This document shows positions 5,397 through 31,462 of a stretch of DNA of 35,406 nt, piece after piece; within the stretch, counting starts at the first letter, position 1, and the number at the start of each line of letters is the position of its first letter. The notes under the pieces are model-generated. The model did not search any database and was not told the DNA's origin. It was given only the letters and a program-made list of their open reading frames with translations. The translations under genes and the position numbers were made by a program. Origin of the DNA: Pseudomonadota bacterium. Lineage in GTDB: Bacteria; Desulfobacterota; S145-22. The stretch is from contig WGDA01000125.1 of NCBI GenBank assembly GCA_015493505.1, forward strand, positions 1-35,406. The letters are read 5' to 3'.

Positions 5397-6161
5397 GTGG
5401 ATATCGCAACCATTATTGGTTTTGTCATGGCGTTTGGACTGGTCGTCGCGGGAATTCTCCAGGGGGGAAGTCTCGGGACCTTCATTGATCCACCTTCCCT
5501 CCTGATTGTCGTGGGTGGAACCATTGGGGCTACCCTGATAAACTACTCCCTGCCAAAGGTCTTAGGACTGGTGGGAATTTTAAAAAACGCGTTCTTTTCA
5601 CAATCGAACAACCCGGATCAGTGGATACAAATTCTGGTAGAGTTCGCGGGAAAATCGCGCCGGGACGGTATCCTGGCACTGGAATCATCACTTGGCGAAG
5701 TCAAGGATGAATTTCTGAAAAAGGGAATCCAGCTTGCCATTGATGGCCTCGAGCCTCAGGTCATACGGAACATTCTCGAGACCGAGATTGATCACATTGA
5801 CGAGAGGCATAAAGACGGTAGCGACATCTTTATGGCGATGGCCGCTTTCGCCCCCGCGCTTGGCCTCATCGGCACACTGATTGGTCTGGTCATGATGCTG
5901 CAGAACATGGATGACCCCAGTTCTATTGGTCCTGCTATGGCGGTCGCGTTGCTGACGACATTTTATGGAGCCATCATGGCAAACCTGATATTTACACCAC
6001 TGGCTGGAAAACTAAAGGTGAAAAGTAAGGAAGAAATTCTGACGAAAGAGCTTCTTCTGGAAGGGATTTTATCCATTACGGCGGGTGATAACCCGAGGGT
6101 ATTGGAGCAGAAACTGCACGCGTTCCTGGCGCCTAAGTTGAGAAAGTCGAGCTTCGAATAA
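5397..6161 (+). CDS. motA: Flagellar stator protein MotA
   Basis: MotA forms the pentameric ring of the stator in the inner membrane and pushes on FliG as ions pass. Four hydrophobic segments are visible (about residues 3-22, 33-52, 150-170, 182-205). The hallmark FAPALGLIGTLIGLVMML and GPAMAVALLTTFYG blocks carry the conserved prolines of TM3 and TM4. The cytoplasmic loop has the charged KSRRDGILALE stretch that contacts the rotor in the family. Start is GTG with AAGGGG at 5384-5389, 27 bases downstream of the predicted sigma-54 start site. 254 residues is standard. Two motB-type genes follow. Whether the motor uses H+ or Na+ cannot be settled from the sequence alone. Confidence 0.95.
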   Translation: MDIATIIGFVMAFGLVVAGILQGGSLGTFIDPPSLLIVVGGTIGATLINYSLPKVLGLVGILKNAFFSQSNNPDQWIQILVEFAGKSRRDGILALESSLGEVKDEFLKKGIQLAIDGLEPQVIRNILETEIDHIDERHKDGSDIFMAMAAFAPALGLIGTLIGLVMMLQNMDDPSSIGPAMAVALLTTFYGAIMANLIFTPLAGKLKVKSKEEILTKELLLEGILSITAGDNPRVLEQKLHAFLAPKLRKSSFE

Positions 6162-6172
6162 GGTGGTAAGTG

Positions 6173-6910
6173 ATGCCACGGAAGAAGAAAAAACAGGAAG
6201 AAGAAGGAGGGGATCCTTTCGTGGTCATGATGACTTCCCTGAGTATGATTCTCCTCGCCTTTTTCATTGTTATGTGCTCCCTTTCCGTGGTGGACGCGAG
6301 GCGGGTCAAAAAAGCCCTGGGCTCCCTGATAGGAAGCTTTGGACCGCTTCCTGGTGGAACCATGGCGAGCAAAGGGAAGAGCGCCCCCTCAAAGGTAATC
6401 GGCGCTGGCCCATCGCAAAAAGCGGCCAAGAATGGGTTGCCTGGACATTCCCTTGGCGCGGCAAAGGTTTCACTTGAAAAGATGGAGACCCTTTTTATGC
6501 AGGAAGGCCTTGGGAAAAAGATGCGTGTGAGCGTGACGACAGAGGGGGTTAAGGTCGCCTTTACGGGAGATGTTCTCTTTAAATCCGGAAAGGCGACGAT
6601 TGATCCTAAGATGCGTCCCATCCTTGACCTTCTGGGAAAGGCGATTGAAGAAGCGAACCGACCCGTTCGCATAGAGGGGTTCACGGATAATGTCCCGATT
6701 CACACAAAAAGGTATCCGTCCAACTGGGAATTGTCCGTTGCGAGGGCGGTGAATGTTCTACGTTATCTTGTCAGAAAGGGATATATCTCTTCCGATAGGG
6801 TCTATGCGGTTGGATATGGGCCTTACCGGCCTGTTGCGCCGAACGATACGCCGCAGCATCGGGCGTTGAATCGAAGGATTGATGTCGTTTTCTTGGGGAC
6901 TTACCTTTAG
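6173..6910 (+). CDS. MotB-type stator protein lacking the ion-binding aspartate
   Basis: This has the MotB layout: a basic N-terminal tail, one membrane helix (about residues 17-38) and a C-terminal OmpA/MotB peptidoglycan-binding domain with GFTDNVPIHTKRYPSNWELS, ARAVNVLRYLV and ALNRRIDVVF. Aligned to the neighbouring MotB on the shared FF of the helix (SLSMILLAFF against DLLTLLLTFF), the essential Asp is a Ser (Ser22). It should therefore not bind the driving ion by itself. Start is the ATG at 6173 behind AAGGTGG (a GTG at 6170 is in frame just before it), 11 bp after motA. The 81 N-terminal bases encode a Lys/Glu-rich tail. It is likely to pair with the second MotB or to serve as an anchoring subunit; this is inference. 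Confidence 0.88.
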   Translation: MPRKKKKQEEEGGDPFVVMMTSLSMILLAFFIVMCSLSVVDARRVKKALGSLIGSFGPLPGGTMASKGKSAPSKVIGAGPSQKAAKNGLPGHSLGAAKVSLEKMETLFMQEGLGKKMRVSVTTEGVKVAFTGDVLFKSGKATIDPKMRPILDLLGKAIEEANRPVRIEGFTDNVPIHTKRYPSNWELSVARAVNVLRYLVRKGYISSDRVYAVGYGPYRPVAPNDTPQHRALNRRIDVVFLGTYL

Positions 6911-6921
6911 CGGAGGCAGAA

Positions 6922-7710
6922 GTGGCAGACGTTGACCCTAATGCGTGGATGATTTCATTTTCGGATCTCTTGACCCTGTTACTGACCTTTTTTGTGCTGA
7001 TTTTTACCATGTCTTCGGCGGATAACAAGGCTGTCAAACAGGCTTTTGGGTTCTTCAACGCGGCGTATGGTCCCCTTGAAATGGGATCCGGTCCGTCTCC
7101 CTATCCCCCATCAACAGTCAAGGAGCTTAAGCGTTTCAGGCAAACGGCTGTAATTATCCCGGGAACCCTCGCGAACGAGGCATTCGAAGGCACCCTTGAT
7201 TTTGGGAACCCGAAGACGCATGTGGGAAACGTTGGAAAATTCCAGGCCGCCAGGCTTTTGCGGAAGGCCATCAAAGAGAGTGGCTATAACCTTTCCCAGA
7301 TCCAGGTAAGGATGGAAGGGAACAACCTTTTGGTCCGTTTGGGAGAGCGATTTCTTTTCGATTCTGGCAAGGCTGCTTTGAAGCCTGAAATTTATCCCCT
7401 CTTGAAAAAAATCGGGATGGTTATCAAAAAAACCCCTTTTGATGTCCGCGTCGAAGGGTTCACGGACGATGTGCCTATTCACACGGATATCTATCCATCC
7501 AACTGGGAGCTTTCCGTGGCACGTGCCGTGAATGTGCTGCATTATTTGGTGAGGGTGGACGGCATTTCGCCCGCTCGAATGTCCGCGGCCGGATATGGTG
7601 CAACCCATCCCATTTCGAGAAAAAACACCCCGGAGGCAAGGGCGCTGAATCGCCGTGTGGAAATTATTTTAATAGATAGAGGAAAAGGAGAGACTATCAA
7701 TGGCCGATGA
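6922..7710 (+). CDS. motB: Flagellar stator protein MotB, canonical aspartate present
   Basis: MotB anchors the stator to peptidoglycan and carries the ion-binding Asp. Residues 8-31 form the helix PNAWMISFSDLLTLLLTFFV, with Asp15 in the FSDL context conserved in the family. The C-terminal OmpA-like domain has GFTDDVPIHTDIYPSNWELS, ARAVNVLHYLV and a closing ALNRRVEIILID. That domain is very similar to the one in the MotB-type protein just upstream, pointing to tandem duplication. Start is GTG at 6922 with GGAGG at 6912-6916; 262 residues. The 3' end overlaps the fliL start by 11 bp, so translation is probably coupled. With motA this gene should supply a working stator. Confidence 0.94.
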   Translation: MADVDPNAWMISFSDLLTLLLTFFVLIFTMSSADNKAVKQAFGFFNAAYGPLEMGSGPSPYPPSTVKELKRFRQTAVIIPGTLANEAFEGTLDFGNPKTHVGNVGKFQAARLLRKAIKESGYNLSQIQVRMEGNNLLVRLGERFLFDSGKAALKPEIYPLLKKIGMVIKKTPFDVRVEGFTDDVPIHTDIYPSNWELSVARAVNVLHYLVRVDGISPARMSAAGYGATHPISRKNTPEARALNRRVEIILIDRGKGETINGR

Positions 7711-8203
7711 AGAAAAAAACCAGGAAGAAGAACCCAAGAAGAAATCGCCTTTGAAGCTGATTATTATTCTGGTCCTTGTCCTGGCTATTTTGGGGGGCGG
7801 TGGATTTTTCGCCTACAAGAAGTTCCTGGCTCCCAAACCGAAGGCAGCCAAACAGGAAATTTCTGAGCAAGAAGCGCCACCTCCCGGACAGCTTCCAAAG
7901 CTGGGTCAGATCTTTGACCTGGACCCGTTTATCGTCAATCTTGCAGACCAGAAGGAGATTCACTACCTGAAGGTCAAGATCAGTCTGGAGGTCAAAGGGA
8001 AGAAGATTGTCGATGAAATGAATAAACGGCTTCCGCAGATAAGGGACATCATCATCGAATTGTTGAGCAGTAAAACCTTCGAGGAGCTCGCGACGCTGCA
8101 CGGGAAGGAACATCTGAAGAATGAAATCATGATTCGGCTGAACAGTATTTTGACGACAGGGACAGTCGAGCACGTCTACTTTACAGAATTTGTGATGCAA
8201 TAA
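7700..8203 (+). CDS. fliL: Flagellar basal-body-associated protein FliL
   Basis: FliL is a single-pass inner-membrane protein whose periplasmic domain forms a ring around the stator and supports high-load torque. It has a charged Glu/Lys-rich cytoplasmic start, one membrane helix at about residues 19-42 (LIIILVLVLAILGGGGFFAY), a Pro/Lys linker, then the FliL domain with FDLDPFIVNLADQ, LKVKISLEV and a C-terminal VYFTEFVMQ. 167 residues is typical. It starts inside the end of motB (11-bp overlap) with AAAAGGAGA upstream, and fliM follows after 12 bp. A second, more divergent FliL-like protein is encoded at 19350. Confidence 0.94.
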   Translation: MADEEKNQEEEPKKKSPLKLIIILVLVLAILGGGGFFAYKKFLAPKPKAAKQEISEQEAPPPGQLPKLGQIFDLDPFIVNLADQKEIHYLKVKISLEVKGKKIVDEMNKRLPQIRDIIIELLSSKTFEELATLHGKEHLKNEIMIRLNSILTTGTVEHVYFTEFVMQ

Positions 8204-18356: not shown

Positions 18357-19328
18357 TTGGATAAAGAGCTTAGAAAGACCGTTGTCAAGGCTTTGCGGGA
18401 CGACAACCCGAATATACGCCGGGGCGCGGCCATTGCCGCAGGTGAGGAGAGAATCCCGGAAGCCGCCCCGGGCCTGGTGGCCCTGTTGAAAGATCCCCAG
18501 TGGCAGGTCAGACAGGCTGCCGCTTACGCGCTGGGGCTTCTGAAAGAGAAGAGAGCACAACCCTTCCTGAGAAAAGTGATTGGTGCGGACGAAACCAATG
18601 AGCGGGTGCGAATCATCACGATTTTGAACCAGAAAGCGAAAAATCTGGCCGAGGCGAAGGAAGCCATCGTCCGGATTTGGGGGGAGGATTTTAAAGAGAA
18701 AGAGGTTCATCTGCCCGTTTTACGGACGGCGGCGTGGGCGTTAAGCCGCGTACAAGAAGAAAGGATTATTAACCCGCTTATAGAGATTATCAAAGGGGGT
18801 ATCCAGGCGCAACTCATTCCTGCCCTCTCGGGATTAACCGCCCTTGGGGTTCATGAAGCGGAAGAACTCGTGATTGATTGTTTGAAACACGAGCAATGGC
18901 GTGTGCGCCAAACAGCCGCTATCGCGTTGGGAAAGATTGGTTCAGAAAAGTCAGTGGCTCCACTGCTTGAAGCCTATGGTGACGCCAGGTGGGAGGTTCG
19001 CCTTGAGGTTGTCATCGCCCTCAACAACCTCAAGGCGAAAGAGTCGAGAGACCTTTTTGTGCGAGCTTTGGAGGATGAACGCGCGGAGGTCCGGAGGGCG
19101 GCGGCTATCGCCTTGGGGAACACGAGAGACGAAAATGTGGCGGAGTCTTTAAAAAAGGCGCTTTCAGACAAAAGTTGGAGCGTACGAAAGGCAGGATACG
19201 CTTCGTTTGGAAACCTGAAAGTCAAGGCACTGAAAGAGGATATTTTGAAAGGCCTTACGGATGAAGACGAAGAAGTGCGTCAGGAAGCGGCCTTGGCATA
19301 CGCGCGGTGCGTTCCCATAAACGTGTAA
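18357..19328 (+). CDS. HEAT-repeat protein of unknown function in the flagellar operon
   Basis: A 323-residue soluble alpha-solenoid. At least seven HEAT (PBS-lyase-like) repeats can be read by their D-x-x-VR-x-AA-x-AL-G core, for example NIRRGAAIAAG, WQVRQAAAYALG, WRVRQTAAIALGKIG, AEVRRAAAIALGN, WSVRKAGYASFGN and EEVRQEAALAYA. No signal peptide, membrane helix or catalytic motif is seen. The start is a TTG at 18357 with AAAGGG six bases upstream; no ATG or GTG fits near it. It lies 12 bp after cheY and 21 bp before a FliL-like gene, so it is probably co-transcribed with both. HEAT proteins usually act as protein-binding scaffolds. A link to CheY or to the motor is inference from position only; a role in phycobilin-lyase chemistry is unlikely here. 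Confidence 0.85.
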   Translation: MDKELRKTVVKALRDDNPNIRRGAAIAAGEERIPEAAPGLVALLKDPQWQVRQAAAYALGLLKEKRAQPFLRKVIGADETNERVRIITILNQKAKNLAEAKEAIVRIWGEDFKEKEVHLPVLRTAAWALSRVQEERIINPLIEIIKGGIQAQLIPALSGLTALGVHEAEELVIDCLKHEQWRVRQTAAIALGKIGSEKSVAPLLEAYGDARWEVRLEVVIALNNLKAKESRDLFVRALEDERAEVRRAAAIALGNTRDENVAESLKKALSDKSWSVRKAGYASFGNLKVKALKEDILKGLTDEDEEVRQEAALAYARCVPINV

Positions 19329-19349
19329 AAATGGGTGGGATCTGCGGGC

Positions 19350-20099
19350 ATGGATAACGAAACTCCGGGAGAAGGGAAACGAACGGCGCGACCGGACGGG
19401 ACGGAAGATAACAACGCTCAAACACCAGATGAAAAGATTTCCAAGCGTCCTCTTTTTGATGAGCCAGCGAAAGAGGAGCCGGGGATAGAAAGTACGACGG
19501 GTGGAGGAGAGGAACCACAAAAGCCAAAAGCCGATGTAACGACAAAGGAGCCTCCCACTCCAGGGAAGGACCAGCCGGAGTTAGAGGAAGACCTTGAGGC
19601 TATTGAAGAACCGACTTCGCGAAGGAACCTGTTGAAATGGGTCGTCATTGGAGGCGGTGGTTTTGTTTTGGCTTTAATGATCGCCTTCTTTTTCGCGTCT
19701 CTTTACCTCCATAAAAAAAAAGCCACGTTGGCAAGCGTGAAATCTCCAAGAGTTTACATCCAGCCCGTGCTGAAAAAGAAAAAAAAGGTCGTGATAAAAC
19801 AGTACGTGTTTCAACCCTTCTTCTTGAGGCTTAAAAATAATCGGACCGGTGAGGATAAATTTCTGTCCGCGCAAATCTATGTTGAATTTGTTCGTGATAA
19901 GCTGCCCAATGAAATTCATGCCAAAAGGGAAATCTTGAGAACCCTCATTTATAAACAGCTTCTGAAACATTTCGCGGATGGAAAAGACACTCCCAAAAAA
20001 GAGAAGAAATTCGAAGATGAGCTGATTGCCGCCTTGAATACCTTTTTCCATGGGGGGGGGGTGTATGATATCGGTTTCAAGGAGCTGGAGATAAGGTAA
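19350..20099 (+). CDS. Second, divergent FliL-like membrane protein
   Basis: 249 residues. Residues 1-92 are polar, acidic and Pro-rich (disordered, cytoplasmic). One membrane helix spans about 96-120 (KWVVIGGGGFVLALMIAFFF). A Lys-rich linker is followed by a periplasmic domain whose pattern follows FliL: FQPFFLRLKNNRTGEDKFL for FDLDPFIVNL, AQIYVEFV, REILRTLIYKQLL and a closing VYDIGFKELEIR. It is clearly more diverged than the FliL at 7700. The ATG at 19350 is chosen; a GTG at 19335 is in frame. It follows the HEAT gene by 21 bp. A role at the stator or in a surface-attachment complex is possible but unproven. The FliL relationship is my reading of the pattern and needs a profile search. Confidence 0.65.
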   Translation: MDNETPGEGKRTARPDGTEDNNAQTPDEKISKRPLFDEPAKEEPGIESTTGGGEEPQKPKADVTTKEPPTPGKDQPELEEDLEAIEEPTSRRNLLKWVVIGGGGFVLALMIAFFFASLYLHKKKATLASVKSPRVYIQPVLKKKKKVVIKQYVFQPFFLRLKNNRTGEDKFLSAQIYVEFVRDKLPNEIHAKREILRTLIYKQLLKHFADGKDTPKKEKKFEDELIAALNTFFHGGGVYDIGFKELEIR

Positions 20100-20126
20100 A
20101 AAGTGATTGGCAATCAAGAAATTTAT

Positions 20127-20146
20127 CGGAAAAAGCGGTTTTTCCG
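20127..20146 (+). other. Intercistronic hairpin before the 101-residue gene
   Basis: CGGAAAAA and TTTTTCCG form an 8-bp stem around GCGG in the 65-bp gap after the FliL-like gene. There is no T-tract, so it is more likely an mRNA processing or stability element than a terminator. It may set the expression of the following genes relative to the flagellar genes. Confidence 0.3.
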
Positions 20147-20164
20147 GAAGGTTAAGGGAGGGCA

Positions 20165-20470
20165 ATGCAGAAAATTTCCATAGAGCAGGCCGCCGAAGGC
20201 ATGATTCTGGCTAAATCCGTCAAGAACAGCAAGGGAATTACCCTGTGTGGGGAAGGGACCAAGTTAACGGAAGGGCTTATCAAGCGCCTAACTAACATGG
20301 AAATCACCAATATTATCGTTGAAGGGCATCCCGTCGACGATGGGACGGAGGAAGATTCCCCTGAAACCTTTCACGAAAAGCTTGGAGAGCGTTTCCGGTA
20401 CGTTACGAATCAGCCAATCCTGATGGCTGTGAAAGAGGCCATCTGGGAAACGGTCAGAGATGGAGAATGA
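20165..20470 (+). CDS. Small protein resembling the N-terminal domain of HD-GYP proteins
   Basis: A 101-residue cytoplasmic protein. Its first 60 residues (ISIEQAAEGMILAKSVKN, GITLCGEGTKLTEGLIKRL, ITNIIVEGHPV) resemble the short beta-rich module found at the N-terminus of many HD-GYP phosphodiesterases. Here it stands alone and is followed 92 bp later by an HDOD gene, an HD-related domain. The last 40 residues are helical and polar. Shine-Dalgarno AGGGAGGG lies just before the ATG. Function unknown. The pairing with HDOD suggests a two-gene version of a normally fused arrangement, which is inference. Confidence 0.7.
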   Translation: MQKISIEQAAEGMILAKSVKNSKGITLCGEGTKLTEGLIKRLTNMEITNIIVEGHPVDDGTEEDSPETFHEKLGERFRYVTNQPILMAVKEAIWETVRDGE

Positions 20471-20483
20471 AAAGGATAAACAT

Positions 20484-20579
20484 ATGAGAGACTACTTGAG
20501 GCAAGAGGGACCTTTCACCTTCATGAAAAGAGAAAAAGTTTTCATGGTTATCGAGGAAAAAGATGCGCGGGGAGAATAA
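20484..20579 (+). CDS. Possible 31-residue small ORF overlapping the HDOD start
   Basis: ATG at 20484 with AAAAGGA (20470-20476) in a good position encodes 31 residues (MRDYLRQEGPFTFMKREKVF and 11 more) and ends 17 bp inside the HDOD gene. It is highly charged and matches no family I recognise. It could be a translational coupler for the HDOD gene, or chance. Low confidence. Confidence 0.3.
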   Translation: MRDYLRQEGPFTFMKREKVFMVIEEKDARGE

Positions 20580-21411
20580 AGACAGGCGTCCAGATATCCG
20601 AAAAAGAATAGAGCGCCTCAAGAGTCTTCCGACTCTGCCTTCGGTTGTCGCGAAGATTAGCCGCATGGTGGAGTCGGCTGACACCTCCGCGGAGGAAATG
20701 GGCAAGGTGATTTCAACGGATCAGGCTCTGGCCGCGAAGGTGCTTCAGTTGATTAATTCACCAATTTATGGTTTCCCGGGGCGAATCTCTTCGGTAACGC
20801 ATGGCGTCGTGCTTTTGGGGTTCAATGTGATTAAAAGTCTTGTCCTGACCGCGTCTGTTTTTCAAATTATGATTGAACAAATGCGGGGCCTCTGGGAGCA
20901 CTCCATAGCGTGCGCGGCAATTTCGGCCCGATTGGGGAGGAGATTCCCGTCCCTGGATCCGGAGGAAGTATCCACGGCCGGATTGCTTCATGACCTCGGT
21001 AAGGTGGTCATCAGCTCACAGCTCCCTGAGGAATACCAGGAAATCGTTGCCTGTGCAGAGAAGGGGAAACGTTTTTTTATAGATTGTGAAGAAGAGATTC
21101 TGGGAACGAATCACGCTAAAATTATCCGCTGGGTCGTCAAGGACTGGAATTTCCCCATCACACTTGTGGAACCTATTCTTTATCACCATTCGCCTGGGCT
21201 ATCCCGGAACGCGCCATTGCAAACCGCCATCGTGCATTTTGCGGATATTCTCGTAAAGGCGTGGGGATACGGATTCAGCGGCGACATTTATGTCCCCTCG
21301 CTGGATGCACGCGCGTGGTCCCGCCTTGGGTTTTCTGAAAAGGAATTAAAAGATATCGTTATGGAAGCAAAGGAAGAAGTCGATTCGGTGAATACGTTCG
21401 ACCTGGTGTGA
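20563..21411 (+). CDS. HDOD-domain protein (first copy)
   Basis: HDOD is a catalytically quiet relative of HD phosphohydrolases, found as an output module in signalling proteins. The domain fills most of the 282 residues: LKSLPTLPSVVAKISRMVES, STDQALAAKVLQLINSPIYG, then GLLHDLGKVVIS with His143-Asp144 retained, and YHHSPG near residue 207. HDxGK is intact, so residual metal binding is possible. There is no attached receiver or GGDEF domain. Start ATG at 20563 is preceded by GAGGAAAAAG. It stands between the small HD-GYP-N-like gene and the REC-GGDEF gene. In other bacteria HDOD proteins affect motility and surface behaviour; the partner here is unknown. Confidence 0.9.
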   Translation: MRGENKDRRPDIRKRIERLKSLPTLPSVVAKISRMVESADTSAEEMGKVISTDQALAAKVLQLINSPIYGFPGRISSVTHGVVLLGFNVIKSLVLTASVFQIMIEQMRGLWEHSIACAAISARLGRRFPSLDPEEVSTAGLLHDLGKVVISSQLPEEYQEIVACAEKGKRFFIDCEEEILGTNHAKIIRWVVKDWNFPITLVEPILYHHSPGLSRNAPLQTAIVHFADILVKAWGYGFSGDIYVPSLDARAWSRLGFSEKELKDIVMEAKEEVDSVNTFDLV

Positions 21412-21430
21412 GGGTCAATAGGGCGAAACA

Positions 21431-22366
21431 GTGGGCAAAAAGAAAAGAATTCTCTTGATTGAGCCAATAGGCAAAACATCTTCGAGTGTCGTGTCGATTC
21501 TCGAAAAGCAAGATTTCACGGTAAATTTTGCTGAAGAAGGCGAGCGTGCCCTTAGTATGATCTATAACGACCCACCTGATTTGATTCTGGTGGATATGGA
21601 TTCGGACAAGGGGCATTTAGGGGACCTGTGTGTGGAGATCAAGTCCGACAGCATTTATGGACATCTCCCGCTTGTTGCGATGTTTCAAAAGGGTGGATAT
21701 GCGGACGGGGAGGTCATTCGATGGAAGGTGGATGATTTTGTATTTAAACCTGTTGATCCTGATGAAATCCTGTTACGGATCCAGTTGATTTTTGACAGGG
21801 GAGAGAGAAACCTGGACGCCAACGCGCTGACGAGGCTTCCCGGCAACAATACGATTATCAGCCAGATTCAGTCCAGAATTGACAAGAAGGCCTCGTTTGC
21901 CCTCGCTTATCTTGATATAGATAATTTCAAGCCGTTCAATGATCGGTACGGTTTCAGCAGGGGAGATGAGGTGTTGCGCATGACTGCGCGCCTGATCGGG
22001 AACGTGGTTACTTCGGTGAAAGGTTCTGATTCCTTTGTCGGTCATGTGGGGGGGGATGATTTTGTTTTTATCGTTTCTCCGGGTGTTGTGAAAGAGGTTT
22101 GTGAAAAGATTATCAGTAATTTTAATCAGATAATCCCGATTTTTTACGATGAAGAGGATCGCACCAATGGGTATATCGAATCTATCGACAGACAGGAGCA
22201 ACGATGCCGCTTCTCGCTCATGACGGTCTCCATTGGCGTGGGACTGAGCGACAATTTTTCTAAGTTGTCTCATTATGGAGAAATTGCCGCGGTCGCTTCC
22301 GAAATGAAAAAATTCGCCAAGAACCAGGGTGGGGGTGGGTACCGTGTGGACAGGCGGAAACACTAA
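21431..22366 (+). CDS. REC-GGDEF protein with degenerate receiver and GGDDF motif
   Basis: 311 residues: a receiver-like domain (about 5-122) then a GGDEF domain (about 130-308). In the receiver, the phospho-acceptor candidate Asp55 (LILVDMDSD) and Lys106 (FVFKPVD) are present, but the acidic pair at the first strand is reduced to one Glu (LLIEPIG). The cyclase domain starts NALTRLPGN, has YLDIDNFKPFNDRYGF, and carries GGDDF at 207-211 in place of GGDEF. The inhibitory site reads K-x-x-D (KGSD) instead of R-x-x-D. The catalytic Glu is thus replaced by Asp, so diguanylate cyclase activity is uncertain; it may be a GTP or c-di-GMP sensor. GTG start at 21431. It is followed by cheX. Confidence 0.88.
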   Translation: MGKKKRILLIEPIGKTSSSVVSILEKQDFTVNFAEEGERALSMIYNDPPDLILVDMDSDKGHLGDLCVEIKSDSIYGHLPLVAMFQKGGYADGEVIRWKVDDFVFKPVDPDEILLRIQLIFDRGERNLDANALTRLPGNNTIISQIQSRIDKKASFALAYLDIDNFKPFNDRYGFSRGDEVLRMTARLIGNVVTSVKGSDSFVGHVGGDDFVFIVSPGVVKEVCEKIISNFNQIIPIFYDEEDRTNGYIESIDRQEQRCRFSLMTVSIGVGLSDNFSKLSHYGEIAAVASEMKKFAKNQGGGGYRVDRRKH

Positions 22367-22372
22367 GGTTTT

Positions 22373-22403
22373 TTGTGGCAAATCCTATGGATTTTGATAT
22401 AAT
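22373..22403 (+). promoter_or_regulatory. Possible sigma-70-type promoter upstream of cheX
   Basis: A perfect TATAAT (22398-22403) lies 85 bp before the cheX start in an AT-rich gap. The best -35 candidate, TTGTGG at 22373-22378, is spaced 19 bp away, which is poor. If real, it would give cheX expression independent of the long flagellar transcript. Confidence 0.3.
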
Positions 22404-22488
22404 TGTCTGGTAAAATACACCATTATGGATAAGCCTACACAAGCTTTGGGATTGCGTGAAAGACGTTGTAAGAAAGGAGAGATTAGCC

Positions 22489-22953
22489 ATGAATGCTGAA
22501 TTTATCAATCCGTTTATCAACGCGACCATCAGTGTGGTGGAAACCATGTGCATGGTTAAATCCGTTCCGGGAAAACCTTATGTCAAAACAGGGACCAAGG
22601 CGGTTGGAGATGTCTCCGGAATCCTGGGCCTCGCGGGTGAACAGACGGGTTCTTTTGCGGTGAGTTTTTCCGAACCCTGTATCTTAAGGATTGTTTCAAA
22701 CATGCTGGGCGAGGAGATTACGACGATCAACGAGGAAGTTGAGGACGCCGTTGGTGAGATCACAAACATGATATCGGGTGCCGCTCGAAAAGAACTCGCG
22801 GATATTGGGTTCAATTTCGATATGGCACTTCCAACGGTTGTTGTGGGGAAGAACCATTCCATCAGCCACATGGGGAGAGGTCCCACGACAGTGATACCTT
22901 TTTCGACAGAAGTAGGGCCCTATGCCGTGGAAGTCAGTTTTACGGAGAAATAA
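22489..22953 (+). CDS. cheX: CheY-P phosphatase CheX
   Basis: CheX is a cytoplasmic dimeric phosphatase that removes phosphate from CheY. Start (NAEFINPFINATISVVETM) and the body (GEEITTINEEVEDAVGEITN) fit the CheX family, with the single active-site E-x-x-N motif at Glu90-Asn93. The end (GRGPTTVIPFSTEVGPYAVE) is also typical. I use the ATG at 22489, which has AAAGGAGAG upstream; an in-frame start at 22456 adds 11 residues with no ribosome site. 154 residues. It is the last plus-strand gene and meets the minus-strand HDOD gene end to end. No cheZ or cheC is visible, so CheX is probably the phosphatase of this pathway. Confidence 0.9.
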   Translation: MNAEFINPFINATISVVETMCMVKSVPGKPYVKTGTKAVGDVSGILGLAGEQTGSFAVSFSEPCILRIVSNMLGEEITTINEEVEDAVGEITNMISGAARKELADIGFNFDMALPTVVVGKNHSISHMGRGPTTVIPFSTEVGPYAVEVSFTEK

Positions 22954-22979
22954 CGCTTGCTAACGGGCGGGCTGTTTGT

Positions 22980-23855
22980 CTATATTCCGATGGTGGTAAG
23001 GAGGAGAGATTCTTTCGATTTCTCCCTGACTTTCTCAAGCATTTTGGGAACTTCTTCAATATTGAGTCCCAATTGCCACCACGCGATTTCTGAGAATTTG
23101 TAAATATTGATTTCTCCACTAAACCCCAGACCTTGGTTGTTACAGATAAAATCCGCAATGTTGACCACCTGCGCGAGTCTCCAAAAGGCGTCTGGAGACC
23201 GTTCCGGTTCGTGGTGAAAAGCGATCATGGCGACCACGGATTCAGGAATGTTCCAGTTTGTAGCAAGGGTTGCGCCTATTTCCGCGTGCGTCGTCCCAAG
23301 AAGCTCTTTCTCTGTCTCGTATAGACTCGCGTCGCTCGCTTCACAGATAATGATGACCTGTTCATATTCCGCGCTGAAATGGTGGCGTAACACGAGCAGC
23401 CCAATATCGTGAAGGAGACCACCGACGAAGAGGTCGTCTTTTGCCGGATCGTGAGATTCGATGGGGTTTTTTGAAAAGGAATTTACCACGTCCGCCATGA
23501 GTGCCACGGAGACGCAATGCCGCCAGAAAAGGCGGCTTTCTTGTCTGGTCATCCCTTTTATTTCTTTCATAAGGGAAAGGGACAGGACGATCTTTTCAAG
23601 CTCCGCCAAACCGAGACGTGAAGCAGCATAATTAAGGGACGTGATCTCCGTAGTCCCACGGTATAAGGGAGAGTTGGCTACCTGCAGGACCTTCGCAGTG
23701 ATGACGGGGTCTTCTTCAATGTATCTGGTAATCTCGGAGATGCTGGTGCTTGGATCTTTGATCAGCCTCAAAACCTGGAACACGATCTCTGGGATCGTAG
23801 GGAGATTTTTAATCTCTCGAATACGTTCCAACAAATTTTTGCCCTTTTCAACCAT
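22980..23855 (-). CDS. HDOD-domain protein (second copy)
   Basis: 291 residues, mostly one HDOD domain: REIKNLPTIPEIVFQVLRLI, EEDPVITAKVLQVANSPLYR, GGLLHDIGLLVLRHHF with His149-Asp150, and FHHEPERSPD. The Lys of HDxGK is replaced (HDIGL), so it is more degenerate than the plus-strand copy at 20563. The two are related but clearly distinct in sequence. Shine-Dalgarno GAGGGG precedes the ATG. It lies 26 bp after cheA and is the last gene of the minus-strand chemotaxis run, so it is probably made together with CheA. Function unknown. Confidence 0.9.
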   Translation of the reverse strand: MVEKGKNLLERIREIKNLPTIPEIVFQVLRLIKDPSTSISEITRYIEEDPVITAKVLQVANSPLYRGTTEITSLNYAASRLGLAELEKIVLSLSLMKEIKGMTRQESRLFWRHCVSVALMADVVNSFSKNPIESHDPAKDDLFVGGLLHDIGLLVLRHHFSAEYEQVIIICEASDASLYETEKELLGTTHAEIGATLATNWNIPESVVAMIAFHHEPERSPDAFWRLAQVVNIADFICNNQGLGFSGEINIYKFSEIAWWQLGLNIEEVPKMLEKVREKSKESLLLTTIGI

Positions 23856-23881
23856 GCCATGTCCCCCTCGGTTAGGAAAAA

Positions 23882-26800
23882 TTACGCCGCGGACGCGCGC
23901 TGTTTCCGCGTAAGAAGTTCGTGAACCTTTGTAAGGACGCGCGCCTTGTCAATTTTTATTTCATAGTCATCGAAGCCAAGCCTTAACCCTTTCGCTCGGC
24001 TTTTTTCATCAGACAGGGCGGTGAGTGCCATCACCGGGAGATCCTTGAATTTCTCACTTTTCCGGATATTCTGAATGAGTTCGTATCCGTCCATCACGGG
24101 CATCTCGATGTCACTGATGACAAGGTCGACGGGTTCACTGTGTAGGATGGACAAGGCCTTGACCCCATCCATTGCTTCGAGAACTTCATATCCCGCGGAT
24201 TCGAGATAGCTTCGTGTGAGCTTCATGAAAAATGGGGTGTCTTCCACAATTAGGATGCGGGCATTGTGAACCTCCCCGCTGACCGAGTCGATGATTTCCT
24301 TCTGTTCCGGATCAACCATTTCGAACAGAGTGAAAAGGTCCAGCATCGGCATGGTGCGGCCCGCGATGATGACGGTTCCCAGGAATCCTCTATCAGTCAT
24401 GGATTCCGTGTCAAGCTCTATTGACGTTTCCAGAACATCAATGACTTTCGTGGCGATAATTCCCATCGGATGTCGGGACATTCTCGGCACAATCACAAAA
24501 AGTGTTTCGTGTTCCTTCTCAGGTGGTTTGATGGAGAGATATTTTTCCAAACGTATTAAAGGCAGGCTGGAGCCTCTCAACTGCACGAATTCCCTTTCGC
24601 CTACCGTTTCAATCTTTATTGTTTCAATCTTTTCCAGGCGGGCAACCATGGACATGGGAAGGGCGAAGGCTTCATGTTCGTTGACGGAAAAGAGAAGCAC
24701 GTATTGTTTTTCCATCATACCTTTTCTCGCAAGGTTTTCCTCTTCCGCCTTGGAGATTTCTTCTATGTCCGCGAGTTTCAGGTTGGCGATACGGGCGATT
24801 CCCTGCACATCGAGGATCATGGCAACCTTTCCGTCACCCATGATGGTGGTACCAGAAAAACAGGCAATGGATTTCAGATAATTCGATAAAGGTTTTACCA
24901 CAATTTCTTCCGTATCAAGAACCTGATCCACGATAAGCCCATATCGGCTGCCGCCCAGTTTCAGGACAAGAATGTTTAAAATCTGTGGGTGGGTTCGCCG
25001 GTCTTTCAAAGCCCGTCTTTCTTTATTATTTCGCGAAGGGGGATCGCTGTCGCGGCGATCCAAAATATTTACCCTTCTATCCGGAAGGACTTCTTTTGTT
25101 TCCGGATGCACGAATGTCCTCGGGATCTTCAGGACGTCCGCCAGACGGACAAGAGACAGGAGGTGCCCGCGAAGGCGCAACACCTCGTACCCTTTCACCC
25201 TCTCGATCCTGATTTTTTCGTTTTCTCCCTTAACACGGACGATTTCCTCCAGGTTGACCTGGGGAACGGCGAAACGGTGATCGCCTACCTTGGTGATGAT
25301 GGAGGGGATGATGGCCAGGGTGAGCGGAAGCCGGACGGTCACGGTGGTTCCTTTCCCCTTTTCGGAATTAATTTCCACCACCCCGCCAAATTTTTCGAAG
25401 TTTGTCTTGACCACGTCCATTCCGACACCACGCCCGGAAATGTCGGAAATTTTCTCGGCAGTTGAAAAGCCGGGCAGGAAAATGAGGTTAGTCAGCTCCT
25501 TGTTCGACATATTCTCAGCCTCTTCCGGCTTGATCAGTCCCTTTTCAATGGCTTTTGCCCGGATTTTTTCCGGATCGATCCCCTTTCCGTCATCCTGGAT
25601 TTCGATATTGACCTGCCCCCCTTCCTGGTAGGCACGCAGCCAGATCGTCCCCTCGGCTTCTTTCCCCGCCCGGATGCGTTCTTCCGGGGGTTCGATTCCG
25701 TGATCCACGCTGTTGCGAATCAGATGGGTCAGGGGGTCGCTGATGACCTCGATAATGGAACGGTCGAGTTCCACTTCGTTCCCTTCGATAATCAGCTTTA
25801 TCTTTTTATTGACCTTTTTGCTCATGTCCCTGACGATGCGCGGGAATTTGTTGAAGACATTCCCCACGGGCTGCATTCGTGTCTGCATCACGTGTTCCTG
25901 CAACTCTGTGACACGCTGGGATAGAGTATGCAGGATAGGCAGGTCCCGATCCCTGTCCTTAAGGGCCTGCATGAGCTGGTTCCGGCCCAGGACCAGCTCT
26001 CCGGCCAGATCCATGAGGCGCGTGAGGAGGCGCACGTTGACACGGATGGTTTCCTGCTGTTGTGTTTGCGTCTTGGGTTTCTTTTTGGGCGACGAGAGGG
26101 GCTTCTTTTCTTCAGGAGCGGCTTTTTGCCCGGAGTCCGTTTCTTTTTTCTCAACTTCTTTTTCTTCTTCAGGGGGTGAAGATGCTTCCTTCGTTTCGAT
26201 AGCCGGTTCTTTTTTCGGTTCTTTAGTTTCCTGTTTGGGGATGATCACTGGTTGGATGGCCTTTTCGTCAAGACCAAGGGTTAAAGCCAGGACATCAGGT
26301 TCCAGGATGGTTGAATAGAAGACCTCCACAGAGGGAGAATAAGGGCTCTCTCCCCTCTTGATGGTCGAGAGCTCCGGGTTGGAAAAGATGACCTCGCCGG
26401 TTTGAGAGAGGACATCCATCAGGGTGTCCCCCTCCTTTTCCTTTTCGAATGCTGTCGTGATAGCCGAATCATCCATGATGAACCGATAGAGGGAAGCAGG
26501 GCCTTTTTTAGATGCCGCGGCGATGACTTCCGGAGGTAACTGTTCTTCCATTTCCTGGGAAGAGGCGGATTCTGTTGATTCGGAAGGGGGTGCCTGGCCT
26601 TCCTTCTTTGCCTCTGCCGATGGTTCTTTGCCGCTCAACGCGGCTTCGAGCACGGCAATGGCTTCATCGATTTCGAAAGATTCGCTATTATCGACGTCGT
26701 CGATCATTCCTTTCAGGATATCCGAGGCATTGAGCAGCGCGTCGATCCGCTCAGAGGTAATGGAAAGTTCCCGGTCGCGAATCTTCATCAATAGGTTTTC

Positions 26801-27013
26801 CATGGTGTGGGACAGCTTGGCGATTTTCTGGAGCCCGAAAAAGCCGCTGGCGCCCTTAACGGTGTGAATCGCGCGAAATACCCGGTTGATGAGTTCATCA
26901 TCCGCGTCATCTCCCGCCTCTTCCATGGCGAGCAGGTCGCTTTCGATGTCCGCGAGGTGTTCCCGGGACTCCGAGACAAATTCATTCAGGATCTCTCTGT
27001 CTTGAGCGTCCAT
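23882..27013 (-). CDS. cheA: Hybrid chemotaxis histidine kinase CheA with C-terminal receiver
   Basis: CheA takes receptor input via CheW and phosphorylates CheY and CheB. Order of domains: HPt (about 1-110, His50 in IHTVKGASG); an unusual 175-260 segment (LYRFIMDDSAITTAFEKEKE, VEVFYSTILEP) in the P2 position; a long charged linker; the dimerisation helices (about 322-390, NVRLLTRLMDLAGELVLGRN); the ATPase (N box HLIRNSVDHG with Asn434, DDGKGID, GRGVGMD); two CheW-like domains (about 575-745 and 770-900), the first with an Arg-rich insertion; and a receiver (about 918-1038) with Asp968 in ISDIEMP. At 1043 residues it is far longer than the classical 650. The ATG at 27013 has GAGGGA seven bases upstream, overlapping the previous stop; an in-frame ATG at 27028 is less likely. 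The receiver may act as an internal phosphate sink. Confidence 0.95.
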   Translation of the reverse strand: MDAQDREILNEFVSESREHLADIESDLLAMEEAGDDADDELINRVFRAIHTVKGASGFFGLQKIAKLSHTMENLLMKIRDRELSITSERIDALLNASDILKGMIDDVDNSESFEIDEAIAVLEAALSGKEPSAEAKKEGQAPPSESTESASSQEMEEQLPPEVIAAASKKGPASLYRFIMDDSAITTAFEKEKEGDTLMDVLSQTGEVIFSNPELSTIKRGESPYSPSVEVFYSTILEPDVLALTLGLDEKAIQPVIIPKQETKEPKKEPAIETKEASSPPEEEKEVEKKETDSGQKAAPEEKKPLSSPKKKPKTQTQQQETIRVNVRLLTRLMDLAGELVLGRNQLMQALKDRDRDLPILHTLSQRVTELQEHVMQTRMQPVGNVFNKFPRIVRDMSKKVNKKIKLIIEGNEVELDRSIIEVISDPLTHLIRNSVDHGIEPPEERIRAGKEAEGTIWLRAYQEGGQVNIEIQDDGKGIDPEKIRAKAIEKGLIKPEEAENMSNKELTNLIFLPGFSTAEKISDISGRGVGMDVVKTNFEKFGGVVEINSEKGKGTTVTVRLPLTLAIIPSIITKVGDHRFAVPQVNLEEIVRVKGENEKIRIERVKGYEVLRLRGHLLSLVRLADVLKIPRTFVHPETKEVLPDRRVNILDRRDSDPPSRNNKERRALKDRRTHPQILNILVLKLGGSRYGLIVDQVLDTEEIVVKPLSNYLKSIACFSGTTIMGDGKVAMILDVQGIARIANLKLADIEEISKAEEENLARKGMMEKQYVLLFSVNEHEAFALPMSMVARLEKIETIKIETVGEREFVQLRGSSLPLIRLEKYLSIKPPEKEHETLFVIVPRMSRHPMGIIATKVIDVLETSIELDTESMTDRGFLGTVIIAGRTMPMLDLFTLFEMVDPEQKEIIDSVSGEVHNARILIVEDTPFFMKLTRSYLESAGYEVLEAMDGVKALSILHSEPVDLVISDIEMPVMDGYELIQNIRKSEKFKDLPVMALTALSDEKSRAKGLRLGFDDYEIKIDKARVLTKVHELLTRKQRASAA

Positions 27014-27017
27014 AACA

Positions 27018-28931
27018 TTATCCCTCATCTGGAAGGTTGAACTGTTTCACGATATTTTTTAACTCTACTACCGCGTTGGAAAGCTGCAGAGCTTGCGTGG
27101 TCACGTCTTTAGACTGGTCTTTGACTGTCGTGATGACCTTGTGAACGCCCTGTACACTGGATGAGATTTCGTTAGCGCCAATGGAAAGTTCGGATGTCTG
27201 TTTCGCGATTTCGTTCAGGCCCAGGTTCATCTCATTGATGTTGACAGCCATCTCCTGTGTCCGCGTTGCTACCTCTTCAATCGCGCCGGCGATCTCATTC
27301 GTCTGGGTTGACGATTCCTTGATTTGCCTTGACGATTCTTCTGTGGCCGAAACCTGTTTGTTCACGAGAGCGAGGATGGTGTTAAAGGTTTCGTTTATCT
27401 CATTGATAATGTCCACGATAGATTGAATCGCTTTGGTTGCCGTGTAGGTCTGGTTCTGGATTCCAGCAATTTTCTCCGTGATGTCCTGTGTGGCTTGAGC
27501 GGTTTGTTTTGCGAGTTCCTTGACTTCACCGGCGACCACGGCGAATCCCTTCCCGGCTTCGCCCGCCGATGCGGCCTCGATCGTGGCGTTGAGCGCCAGG
27601 AGGTTGGTCTGGTCAGCAATATCCGTGATGACATTGACAATCTTTCCGACCTCTTTTGCCCGACTCTCCAATAGCTTCATGCCATTTGTGGTTTCTTCCG
27701 AGGCGGCTTTTGCTTTGTGGATAATCCCAGCCGCGTTGTTGGAGTTCTCGGCGATGACATTGAGGGAATGTTCCATGTCATTCATCGTCATGGCGATGGC
27801 GCTGACGTTTTTGGACAGGTTGTCCGCGCTTTCCGAGATCATTCTGACATTTTCATTGAGGGTTTCCATCCCTTTGGAAATGCTCGCGCTGTTGCTGCTC
27901 GCTTCCTCATTGCTGCTCGCGACGGTTGAGATATTGACTGATATCTCTTCCACGGCTGAAGCCACGGTATCAATCTGCTCTGAGGCTTCATCCGATTCTC
28001 CCGAGAGGGTCTGGGAAATCCGTTCCATGGTCTGGGAGGAAGCGGCGAGGTTTTCAGCGGCGTTGTTTAGGGTGACAATCTGTTTTGAAAGTGTTTCAAC
28101 GAAGTTGTTGATGGCTCGGGCCATCTGCCCGATTTCATCCTCATAGTCGATGGTGAGCCGGGAGCTCAAATCCCCTTTTTCCAGTTTTTTTGAGAATTCA
28201 ACAACCCTTAAAACGGGGCTCAGGACCATCTTTCTCACGAGGTAAAGGGTAATAAGAAAGATGACAATGCCCGCGAAAAATGAAGAGACAAGGAAGATCT
28301 GGGTATGGATGACCCGCCGCTTGGACGCCTTCGCGAACATGAAAACAGCCTTGTTCATGGTGGATAGCAGTTTGAGATTGTGCTTAAGTACCCAGTCGTA
28401 GTCTTTGATCAGTTTGTCGGAAGGGAGTTTTGTGAAAAGAAGCGTTTCAAGTTTTGGCCGAAAAGACTTCCATATCATTTTCACCTTCATGAGCTGTTTT
28501 CTGATGGCAGGATCCTGGCATGGAGGCATCGGCGCGGTTTTGACTTCTTTCTTCGTTTTTGGATCTATCGTTGGAGCGGGACCTCCGTCAATCAACGCCT
28601 GTAGACTCGCGTCGAACCACCGGATGGCAGTTTTCGCCTCCTTAAGGGTGTTATGTGTCAGAGCTGTTTTTCTTAACGCCTCGGAGGAGGAGAAACGTGA
28701 CAAAGCCACATCCAGCGCCGATTTTGTCATCTTTTGGGTGAGCATCCGCTGTCGTCCCGCAATGTTGATGACAAGGCCGTCTGTTTGGGCGCTTCGCGTC
28801 ACCACAATATTTTGGACGAGAATGGCGATGAAGAGCGCGAGATTGATACCGACAATAAGGCCTATTTTCCAAGACAGAGAGAGAGTTCGCCATCTTTTTT
28901 TGATGTTCAGCGTCTCTTTCGAGGTTCCCAT
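27018..28931 (-). CDS. Methyl-accepting chemotaxis protein with PilJ-like sensor
   Basis: 637 residues in the inner membrane. TM1 is at about 20-42 and TM2 at about 212-232. Between them is a helical periplasmic domain beginning [20 protein letters not shown], the hallmark of the PilJ / type IV pili MCP N-terminal family. HAMP follows (about 233-285), then the signalling hairpin with [20 protein letters not shown] at the tip. No C-terminal CheR-binding pentapeptide is present (ends FNLPDEG). The ATG at 28931 has AAAGGAGGG five bases away; an in-frame ATG at 28961 overlaps the end of cheR and lacks a ribosome site. Its place between cheR and cheA makes it the likely dedicated receptor of this array. 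Ligand unknown; homologues with related domains sense small anions or work with pili. Confidence 0.92.
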
Positions 28932-28957
28932 TTTTTCCCTCCTTTCTCGATGATTCA

Positions 28958-29791
28958 TCACTTGGCGCGATAATAAAATGACTGTTTGTGTTGCAACGCT
29001 TCAAAATCCTCTGAAAACCCTCGCAGGTTTTCCGCGCTCCCCAGAAAGAAGTACCCGTGAGGATAAAGGGCCTGATGAAACTTCTTGAACAGTTTCCTCT
29101 TGAAATCATCGCTGAAATAGATGGCGACATTTCGGCAGAATATGACGTCAAATCTGCCCAGGAGCGCGAAGGAATCCTGCAGATTAAGTTGCTTAAACTT
29201 TACAAGGGCCTTAACTTCTTTTTTAATCTCGTAAGTCCTGCCATCTTTGTCAAAATATCTTGTCAGCAGTGATTGGTCCATTCCCCTGGAGATGGAGAGT
29301 CCTTCATACCTGCCCGCGATGGCGGTAAAGAGCGCTGAAGGGGAAATGTCGGTGCCAAGTATTTCAAAGCGGCTGGGGGTAGCCTCCGGGTGTTTTTTGC
29401 AGTATTCAAAGATGGTGATGGCAATGGAATAGGGTTCCTGCCCAGTGGAGCAGCCGGCCGACCAGAAACGTATTTTTCTTGTCTTGACGGATTTCAGGAG
29501 TTCGGGAAGAATGACCTCATCGAGAATAATGAAGGGGCTTCGGTCCCGGAACCACAAGGTTTCGTTGGTGGTCATGGCGTCGATAATTTTCTCGAGCCAT
29601 CCCGATTTCCTGTCGAGAGTTTTTTGATAAAATTCCTTGTATGTGGCGCTGCCAGACGCCTTCAAAAGAGGGCGAAGCCGGCTTTCCACGAGATAGCTTT
29701 TCGCGTCACCCAGGGTAATCCCCGAGTACTTTTTGATAAGCTCGCGAAAAAGCTCGAATTCTTCTTTTGACAGAGACACGTCGGCACTCAT
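28958..29791 (-). CDS. cheR: Chemotaxis protein methyltransferase CheR
   Basis: Uses S-adenosylmethionine to methylate glutamates on receptors. Residues 5-70 form the helical N-terminal domain ([20 protein letters not shown]). The SAM-binding domain follows, with [51 protein letters not shown] and [12 protein letters not shown]. 277 residues is standard; there is no extra C-terminal TPR. The ATG overlaps the cheB stop by 4 bp, so adaptation enzymes are made in step. Confidence 0.97.
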
Positions 29792-30861
29792 GCGACACCC
29801 GCTAATTGATTGATGCGTTTTGCCATTTCTTCAAGGGAAAGGATTTCGTCGGCAAGGCCATGATCCACGACATATTTAGGCATTCCGTAAACAACACAAC
29901 TTTCCTCGTCCTGTGCCAGACAGTAGGCGCCTTTGCGCTTCAGGGCCTGAACTCCCTTGAAACCGTCGGATCCCATCCCTGTCATGATGACCGAAAGAAC
30001 CTTTTCTGACGGAAAATGCGAGGCGATAGAACGAAAAAGGACATCCACAGACGGGCGGCAACTGTTCTCCGGCGGGTTGTCATTGAGGCCGATGACGTAG
30101 GCCTCATTCGCCTTGCGAATGACCATGTGCCGCCCACCCGGGGCAATGTAAACCATGCCCGGTTTTATGGGTTCGTTCTCTTCCGCCTCTTTTACGTTTA
30201 GCCGGGTATGTTTGTTGAGATTCTCCGCAAGCGATTTCGTGAAGATAGGTGGCATGTGCTGGACAATCAGGATGGGGGGGAGCTTTGGAGACAAGTTGGG
30301 CAGCAGTTTTCCGAGCGCCTTGGGCCCACCCGTGGAGACTCCGATGGAAATCAGCTCGATCTTCTTGGGAGGGGCCGCGGGGTGTGCCATCTCCTTTTGC
30401 GTGGGGGGAGGGGTTACCCTAACCCGTGGCATGGGCCGCGCGGATAGTTTCTTCTCAAGGATGGCGGAGATATGTTGTCTCAGGGCTTCCGAGAGTTCAC
30501 GGCGCGCCTCTTCTGCGGAGGAGGAGTCTGGTTTGATAATAAAATCAAAGGCACCGGCCTCCAGAGCCTTCATAGTGATGTCAGCGTTCTTCCGGTTGGC
30601 GCCTGACACCATGATAACCTCAATGTCAGGATGCCCCGCTTTGATTTTCTTCAGGGCCGTCAGGCCATCCATAACCGGCATCTCCACATCCAACGTGATA
30701 ATGTCTGGATGGTATTCGGGGATTTTATCCAGGGCGTCCTGGCCGTTTTTGGCGGTCCCGACGATTTCCACGTCTTCAAAAGTGCGAAGAATACTCGACA
30801 GGATGATGCGATATGTCACCATATCGTCTGTGATGAGGACTTTTGCCTTTCTTTTATCCAT
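29788..30861 (-). CDS. cheB: Chemotaxis response regulator and methylesterase CheB
   Basis: Receiver plus methylesterase/deamidase that resets receptors. The receiver (1-125) has Asp12-Asp13, acceptor Asp58 (ITLDVEMPVMDG), Ser86 and Lys110. A Pro-rich linker spans about 140-166. The esterase domain carries the catalytic triad Ser176 (GVSTGGP), His202 (QHMPP) and Asp299 (MTGMGSDG). 357 residues, normal. It starts 27 bp after the cheW stop and overlaps cheR by 4 bp. Confidence 0.97.
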   Translation of the reverse strand: MDKRKAKVLITDDMVTYRIILSSILRTFEDVEIVGTAKNGQDALDKIPEYHPDIITLDVEMPVMDGLTALKKIKAGHPDIEVIMVSGANRKNADITMKALEAGAFDFIIKPDSSSAEEARRELSEALRQHISAILEKKLSARPMPRVRVTPPPTQKEMAHPAAPPKKIELISIGVSTGGPKALGKLLPNLSPKLPPILIVQHMPPIFTKSLAENLNKHTRLNVKEAEENEPIKPGMVYIAPGGRHMVIRKANEAYVIGLNDNPPENSCRPSVDVLFRSIASHFPSEKVLSVIMTGMGSDGFKGVQALKRKGAYCLAQDEESCVVYGMPKYVVDHGLADEILSLEEMAKRINQLAGVA

Positions 30862-30888
30862 ACTTTTGCCTTTACGTTTTATGTTTGG

Positions 30889-31380
30889 TTAGATCTGGTT
30901 TTGATTTTCATTCCCGCCTTCCACACCAAGCAACTGATTCAGGTTCAAAAGGGTAAGGAGATCGCTTCTTGTTTTGGCAACCCCCCTTACGTATTTTAGG
31001 TCGTTGATATCCATGTTGGCCGGAGGCGGTTCAATATCGTTCTCCTCCGCCGAAACGACATCTCCAATTTCATCGATAAGGAGCCCGACCGGATCATCGG
31101 AGGTTTTGATGCCCTTTTCCAGGGCGAGGTCTGAAAGTTCGGCGTTCGGTTTAATAATCATGAGCCTGGTCCTTTCCTGACTATCCCGTCTTCCAACACC
31201 CAGTTTGATCCCCAAATCTATAATGGTTACTACCTGTCCCCTCAAGTTGACAAGCCCCCTGATGAAATCGGGGGCGAGAGGAACGGGTGTCATTTCGATC
31301 AGTGGGTGTATCTCCCGTATCGTTAGAATGGGTATCCCAAACAGGGTATCATTTAGATAGAAAGTTGCGAATTGTTCCAT
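30889..31380 (-). CDS. cheW: Chemotaxis coupling protein CheW
   Basis: Adaptor that joins MCPs to CheA. One CheW domain fills the 163 residues: FATFYLNDTLFGIPILTIRE, FIRGLVNLRGQVVTIIDLG, DPVGLLIDEIGDVVSAEEND and YVRGVAKTRSDLLTLLNL. The end (about 150-163) is polar and Asn-rich. The sequence upstream of the ATG is purine-rich (GGAGAAGAGAG). Flanked by a receptor gene 82 bp upstream and cheB downstream. Confidence 0.95.
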   Translation of the reverse strand: MEQFATFYLNDTLFGIPILTIREIHPLIEMTPVPLAPDFIRGLVNLRGQVVTIIDLGIKLGVGRRDSQERTRLMIIKPNAELSDLALEKGIKTSDDPVGLLIDEIGDVVSAEENDIEPPPANMDINDLKYVRGVAKTRSDLLTLLNLNQLLGVEGGNENQNQI

Positions 31381-31462
31381 CTCTCTTCTCCGGATTTAGG
31401 TTTTTGTTGCCTTGTTCACGTCTTTAGCCGGAAGAGGCGAACCACAGACTGCGCTCTTTTTC

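Follow-up and report, generated by a model that had tools for sequence, protein, structure and literature searches.

Tandem MotB proteins with a single ion-binding aspartate: a candidate heterodimeric flagellar stator in several bacterial phyla

In the 35,406-nucleotide stretch of DNA analysed here (the window), one motA gene is followed by two motB genes, and only the second of the encoded MotB proteins carries the ion-binding aspartate. Because this aspartate always resides in the second copy, because the first copy appears ion-dead while retaining a helix suited to contact MotA, because the pair recurs in at least five phyla and because the peptidoglycan anchors may be split between its members, we consider it probable that the two MotBs form a heterodimeric axle in one sodium-type MotA ring, giving a MotA5-MotB1-MotB2 unit that has one ion site. 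The initial annotation had raised the possibility that the two MotBs pair up and have one ion site between them; this has become the best-supported explanation, while the sharing of one complex by the two proteins is something we infer from comparing sequences. The evidence tilts slightly in favour of a broader proposition, namely that an obligate heterodimeric stator MotA5-MotB1-MotB2 constitutes an ancient and widespread class, in which the ion-dead partner is the main peptidoglycan anchor in some lineages and about five ions drive five 72-degree steps per turn.

The motA-motB1-motB2 locus

The features of the locus are as follows, with helix positions counted from the ion site (position 0).

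5397..6161, + strand: motA, PomA-like, with a sodium-type triad equivalent to PomA T158/T185/T186 (Pfam MotA_ExbB, 1.1e-31)
6173..6910, + strand: motB1, the Asp-less MotB (ATG at 6173; GTG at 6170 is also a possible start)
6215..6286, + strand: motB1 transmembrane helix with Phe-6, Met-3, Ser0, Met+3, Phe+8 and Phe+9 (from the predicted model and the 129-pair comparison)
6236..6238, + strand: motB1 codon TCC, Ser22, at the ion site
6296..6340, + strand: motB1 plug helix (second helix in the predicted model; MotB_plug match)
6575..6874, + strand: motB1 OmpA-like peptidoglycan-binding domain, contact Asp and Arg kept (Pfam OmpA, 1.7e-19)
6922..7710, + strand: motB2, the Asp-bearing MotB
6964..6966, + strand: motB2 codon GAT, Asp15, the sole ion-site Asp of the pair
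7354..7653, + strand: motB2 OmpA-like peptidoglycan-binding domain, contact Asp and Arg kept (Pfam OmpA, 1.9e-20)
7700..8203, + strand: fliL, overlapping the end of motB2 (Pfam FliL, 3.2e-30), with fliM, fliN and export genes downstream

One motA followed by two motB genes is what the initial annotation had described. Indeed, the open reading frames lie where it placed them, and both MotB products exceed the Pfam cut-offs for MotB_plug (34.3 bits for MotB1 and 48.9 bits for MotB2; cut-off 24) and OmpA (70.4 and 73.4 bits, respectively; cut-off 27.2). The best NCBIfam model for the motA product is PomA (4.3e-88). The three genes are part of a flagellar operon that runs fliK, flgD, flgE, motA, motB1, motB2, fliL, fliM, fliN, fliP, fliR, flhA and further genes, and the motB1 stop is separated from the motB2 start by 11 bases with GGAGG in between. 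Whole-genome searches of the host returned exactly two MotB_plug proteins, the motB1/motB2 pair, and one MotA_N protein. MotB2 displays all the marks of a MotB/PomB protein: the ion-binding Asp, the plug, the OmpA domain and a position downstream of motA. MotB1 also has the MotB_plug and OmpA domains and is encoded directly downstream of motA in the flagellar operon, but it lacks the ion-binding Asp in the transmembrane helix. Judged by domains and descent, MotB1 is a member of the MotB family, yet it lacks the ion residue that defines the family. In its predicted structure (mean pLDDT 83), a transmembrane helix and a plug helix are followed by a disordered linker and a confidently modelled OmpA fold; the prediction matches the periplasmic structures of MotS, PomB and MotB. 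Of 50 relatives, 49 match MotB_plug and 48 match OmpA (E 0.001).

Past the flagellar genes (18357-33490), the window encodes a HEAT-repeat protein and an HDOD protein, followed by a minus-strand chemosensory cluster that includes a CheA-like kinase with a receiver (23882-27028), a PilJ-type receptor (27018-28961), CheB (29788-30861) and a PAS receptor (31463-33490).

The ion-site helix and its MotA partner

The helix strings quoted in the initial annotation, SLSMILLAFF for the first MotB and DLLTLLLTFF for the second, are correct, and so is the replacement of Asp by Ser that was read from them: alignment with Clostridium sporogenes MotB (6ysf) puts Ser22 on the Asp column. No alignment placed an acidic residue of MotB1 at the ion site, and its helix contains none. 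Positions 0, -3 and +3 correspond to D24, T21 and S27 of Vibrio PomB. In the Vibrio PomAB structure, sodium is coordinated by T21 and D24, with S27 right above D24 (PMC10374538), and S27 has been ranked second in importance among the channel residues of PomB (PMC6677748). MotB2 of the window resembles PomB in having Ser-3, Asp0 and Thr+3. However, PomB forms a homodimer with two Asp residues, whereas in the window the adjacent first copy is devoid of both the Asp and its companion residues.

We screened 395 genomes of the host's phylum with a profile built on the Asp-less helix and plug, and genome samples around named records with a second profile. In the loci retrieved, the ion-site residue of each MotB was noted and 129 tandem motB pairs were classified. 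The second MotB has Asp in all 129. The first has Asp in 44 pairs, Ser in 37, Ala in 20, Glu in 10, Thr in 9, Gly in 4, Gln in 4 and Asn in 1; Asp is thus absent from 85 of the 129, a ratio that is not a prevalence, since both profiles were built from Asp-less proteins. The neighbouring residues differ as well. Counted over related sequences, which are not independent events, Trp-6 is present in 7 of the 85 non-Asp first copies versus all 236 Asp-bearing MotBs, Thr/Ser-3 in 6/85 versus 234/236 and Thr/Ser+3 in 4/85 versus 213/236, while the part of the helix that contacts MotA is kept, with Phe+8 in 84/85 and Phe+9, Val/Ile/Leu+10 and a small residue at +14 in 85/85 each. In PomB, the hydrophobic interface for A-B assembly extends from S27 to S38 (PMC10374538). 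Since the ion-contact residues have been lost as a set and the MotA-contact positions preserved, MotB1 looks specifically disarmed for ions, yet still built to fit the MotA ring.

The MotA partner is similarly uniform. The motA gene is found within the locus in 84 of the 85 non-Asp pairs (the remaining one is truncated at the end of its contig), and in 84/84 of them MotA has the sodium-type Thr triad (TTT), with the equivalents of T158, T185 and T186 all present in the window MotA. Among single-MotB loci of the same set, the triad occurs in 37 of 56 MotAs, and proton-type MotAs are found there. By this signature, the MotA of the window and of the non-Asp pairs is sodium-type. The window thus resembles Vibrio PomAB (PomA5-PomB2) both in its PomA-like MotA with the Thr triad and in having one MotA-MotB operon unit. 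The nearest motB2 start lies within -30 to +40 bases of the motB1 stop in 79 of the 85 pairs. No MotB1-MotB2 fusion was seen in these loci; the long open frame of L219 arises because the frame stays open upstream through motA. In 26 genomes, including that of the host, no MotB_plug proteins other than the Asp-less/Asp pair were found, with the caveat that the MotB_plug model can miss divergent copies.

Non-Asp first MotBs are present in at least 56 of the 395 genomes of the host's phylum, which may be Thermodesulfobacteriota, given that relatives of the host group with a Desulfobacteraceae record. Samples built around records of Nitrospirota (L141, L149-L156), Sumerlaeota (L038, L165-L168), Myxococcota (L184-L188, L191) and Pseudomonadota (L169-L183) contain them too, so that the pair spans at least five bacterial phyla when each sampled locus is given the phylum of the named record at the centre of its sample. 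The pattern is widespread and extends beyond the one locus, which the initial annotation could not see. In these Pseudomonadota, whose genomes are small (about 1.3-2.5 Mb), Gln or Glu occupies the ion site, the helix reads LFL[QE]LMM..AFF and all the companion ion residues are lost. Among close relatives of the host without the pair, two (G002, G003) lack fliM, and in a third (G001) fliM is cut at a contig edge.

Descent and peptidoglycan anchoring

The two OmpA-like domains had been described as near-duplicates, a view that did not survive comparison: those of MotB1 and MotB2 are only 55% identical, a value no higher than in comparisons with MotBs from other genomes (L130_B2, 56%; L009, 55%), which rules out a recent duplication of the domain. 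The motif VPIHT..YPSNWELSVARA, taken as a sign of such duplication, is a general MotB signature.

In a careful tree of MotBs (132 rows), 40 non-Asp first copies from five phyla form one clade together with the Asp-bearing L115 (bootstrap 99, SH-aLRT 94), and 52 second copies form a separate clade (bootstrap 99, SH-aLRT 93), so that first and second copies descend in parallel. Asp-keeping first copies, those of Pseudodesulfovibrio and of a flgI-linked group, make up a clade adjacent to the Asp-less one. The non-Asp first copies of L117, L122, L130 and L135 branch elsewhere with the Asp-bearing L120, beside the second copies of their own group, and look like an independent origin of Asp loss; a strictly single origin is doubtful on this account. 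In L115 and L120, Asp-bearing first MotBs inside or beside Asp-less groups, the residue was either retained or regained. When the ion helix is left out of the alignment, the free tree is noisier (8 label changes). Nevertheless, the tree that holds the home-phylum first copies together has the higher likelihood, and a single first-copy clade is not rejected (p-AU 0.93), which speaks against the ion-helix residues alone having shaped the tree. Given the separate clades and the saturated synonymous change (dS) alongside a dN of about 0.2 for both motB1 and motB2, the two genes are ancient paralogues under purifying selection and not a recent duplicate.

OmpA-like domains bind peptidoglycan through a contact Asp and a contact Arg, and 58 of 61 single MotBs keep both. 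Among 82 non-Asp pairs, these residues are kept by both members in 49, by MotB1 only in 16, by MotB2 only in 15 and by neither in 2; in the window, both MotBs keep them. The 16 pairs anchored through MotB1 only come from family f82, L118, Sumerlaeota, Pseudomonadota and Myxococcota, and the losses were confirmed in the aligned segments. In about five lineages the ion-binding MotB2 has lost its peptidoglycan Asp and MotB1 has kept its own. Because here the sole ion-binding subunit has lost contact with the wall and its ion-dead partner has not, the simplest account of the split anchoring, and the one we infer, is that MotB1 and MotB2 work in one complex. The anchor losses are phylogenetically clustered, and although the negative association within pairs hints that double loss is avoided, it falls short of significance (p 0.34).

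Tandem MotBs with Asp in both members, unlike the window pair, are of two kinds, and their second copies share the clade of the window motB2. Pseudodesulfovibrio (L142, L199-L218) has the order motA-motB1-motB2, and its first copies mostly have Ser or Ala in place of the peptidoglycan-contact Asp. In the other kind (L081, L083, L097 and similar loci), the pair sits between flgI and flgJ with no motA nearby, in the order flgA-flgH-flgI-motB1-motB2-flgJ. A short YKGFxFxL-like tail follows the OmpA domain in many first MotBs, Asp-less and Asp-bearing alike (L016, L027, L055, L081, L083); MotB1 of the window has no such C-terminal tail.

Stator composition and its implications

In the mixed unit that we favour, MotB1 and MotB2 would dimerise, MotB2 supplying the only ion site and MotB1 contributing a second, passive helix to fill the MotA ring, together with a plug and a peptidoglycan anchor. 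In the published 5:2 rotary model, with its two equivalent Asp residues, each turn takes 10 ions and proceeds in steps of 36 degrees (PMC9389320). By extension of the same model, a turn of a mixed unit would take about 5 ions and proceed in steps of 72 degrees, and the unit would reach half the maximum torque. The gene content suggests something other than two identical Asp-bearing B chains per unit, the arrangement of PomAB. On the other hand, MotB2 alone could make an ordinary homodimer, and the window pair keeps both anchors. Moreover, in E. coli, mutations at MotB D32 are dominant to the wild type, which suggests that one-Asp dimers work poorly, at least in the unadapted E. coli motor, and counts against the mixed axle.

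The main rival is a separate ion-dead unit, in which MotB1 homodimers would form MotA5-MotB1(2), a brake, spare or regulator in stator positions, with MotA5-MotB2(2) driving rotation. With its MotA-contact helix and plug retained, and in most cases its wall anchor too, MotB1 could assemble alone with MotA. However, every carrier would have dead units competing for its MotA and rotor sites, the 26 genomes have no further stator, and a MotB2 homodimer would be poorly anchored in the roughly five lineages whose MotB2 has no wall Asp; we regard this reading as unlikely. Still less probable is that MotB1 stays outside the MotA pentamer, near FliL and the stator ring, where it would be anchored to the wall and serve in structure or assembly. 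Its OmpA domain, the gene position beside fliL and the first copies that adjoin flgI with no motA nearby would all fit such a role, but the near-invariant MotA-contact residues would then have no reason to persist, and the flgI-linked first copies still bear Asp. That MotB1 conducts ions through another residue at or near the site is scarcely credible: Glu does occupy the site in 10 of the 85 non-Asp copies, but these too are without W-6, T-3 and T+3 (0/10 each), and most of the others, the window included, have Ser, Ala, Thr or Gly in an acid-free helix. Equally implausible is a decaying, functionless duplicate. Decaying genes typically lose catalytic residues, but purifying selection (dN about 0.2 with saturated dS) and parallel clades speak against such decay; the frame is also open in at least five phyla, the predicted fold is intact, and one Asp-less clade has been maintained together with its partner.

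The mixed axle can be set beside known systems. Aquifex aeolicus likewise has one motA followed by two motB genes in a single operon, but its MotB helices are 97% identical, and each of them, fused to the periplasmic domain of the E. coli protein, conferred motility on its own (PMC4525482), whereas the first helix of the window is predicted to be ion-dead. The Myxococcus AglR-AglQ-AglS system resembles the window in combining one A subunit with two MotB-like partners but, unlike it, is not a flagellar stator. No ion-dead partner is known in that system. AglQ and AglS pose the same heterodimer question (PMC9389320).

The ion-binding Asp has been described as universally conserved among stator families (PMC10374538). 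In the open-access papers we found no published account of a conserved Asp-less/Asp MotB pair, and a term search of the text of a 2025 survey of MotAB diversity, which was based on the B gene next to each A gene, likewise turned up none (PMC12505986). If the mixed axle is real, ion conduction and wall anchoring would be divided between two B subunits, and a natural, conserved one-Asp pair would offer a ready-made test of the 5:2 rotary model: whether one active helix is enough, whether the steps are of 72 degrees and whether the torque is halved.
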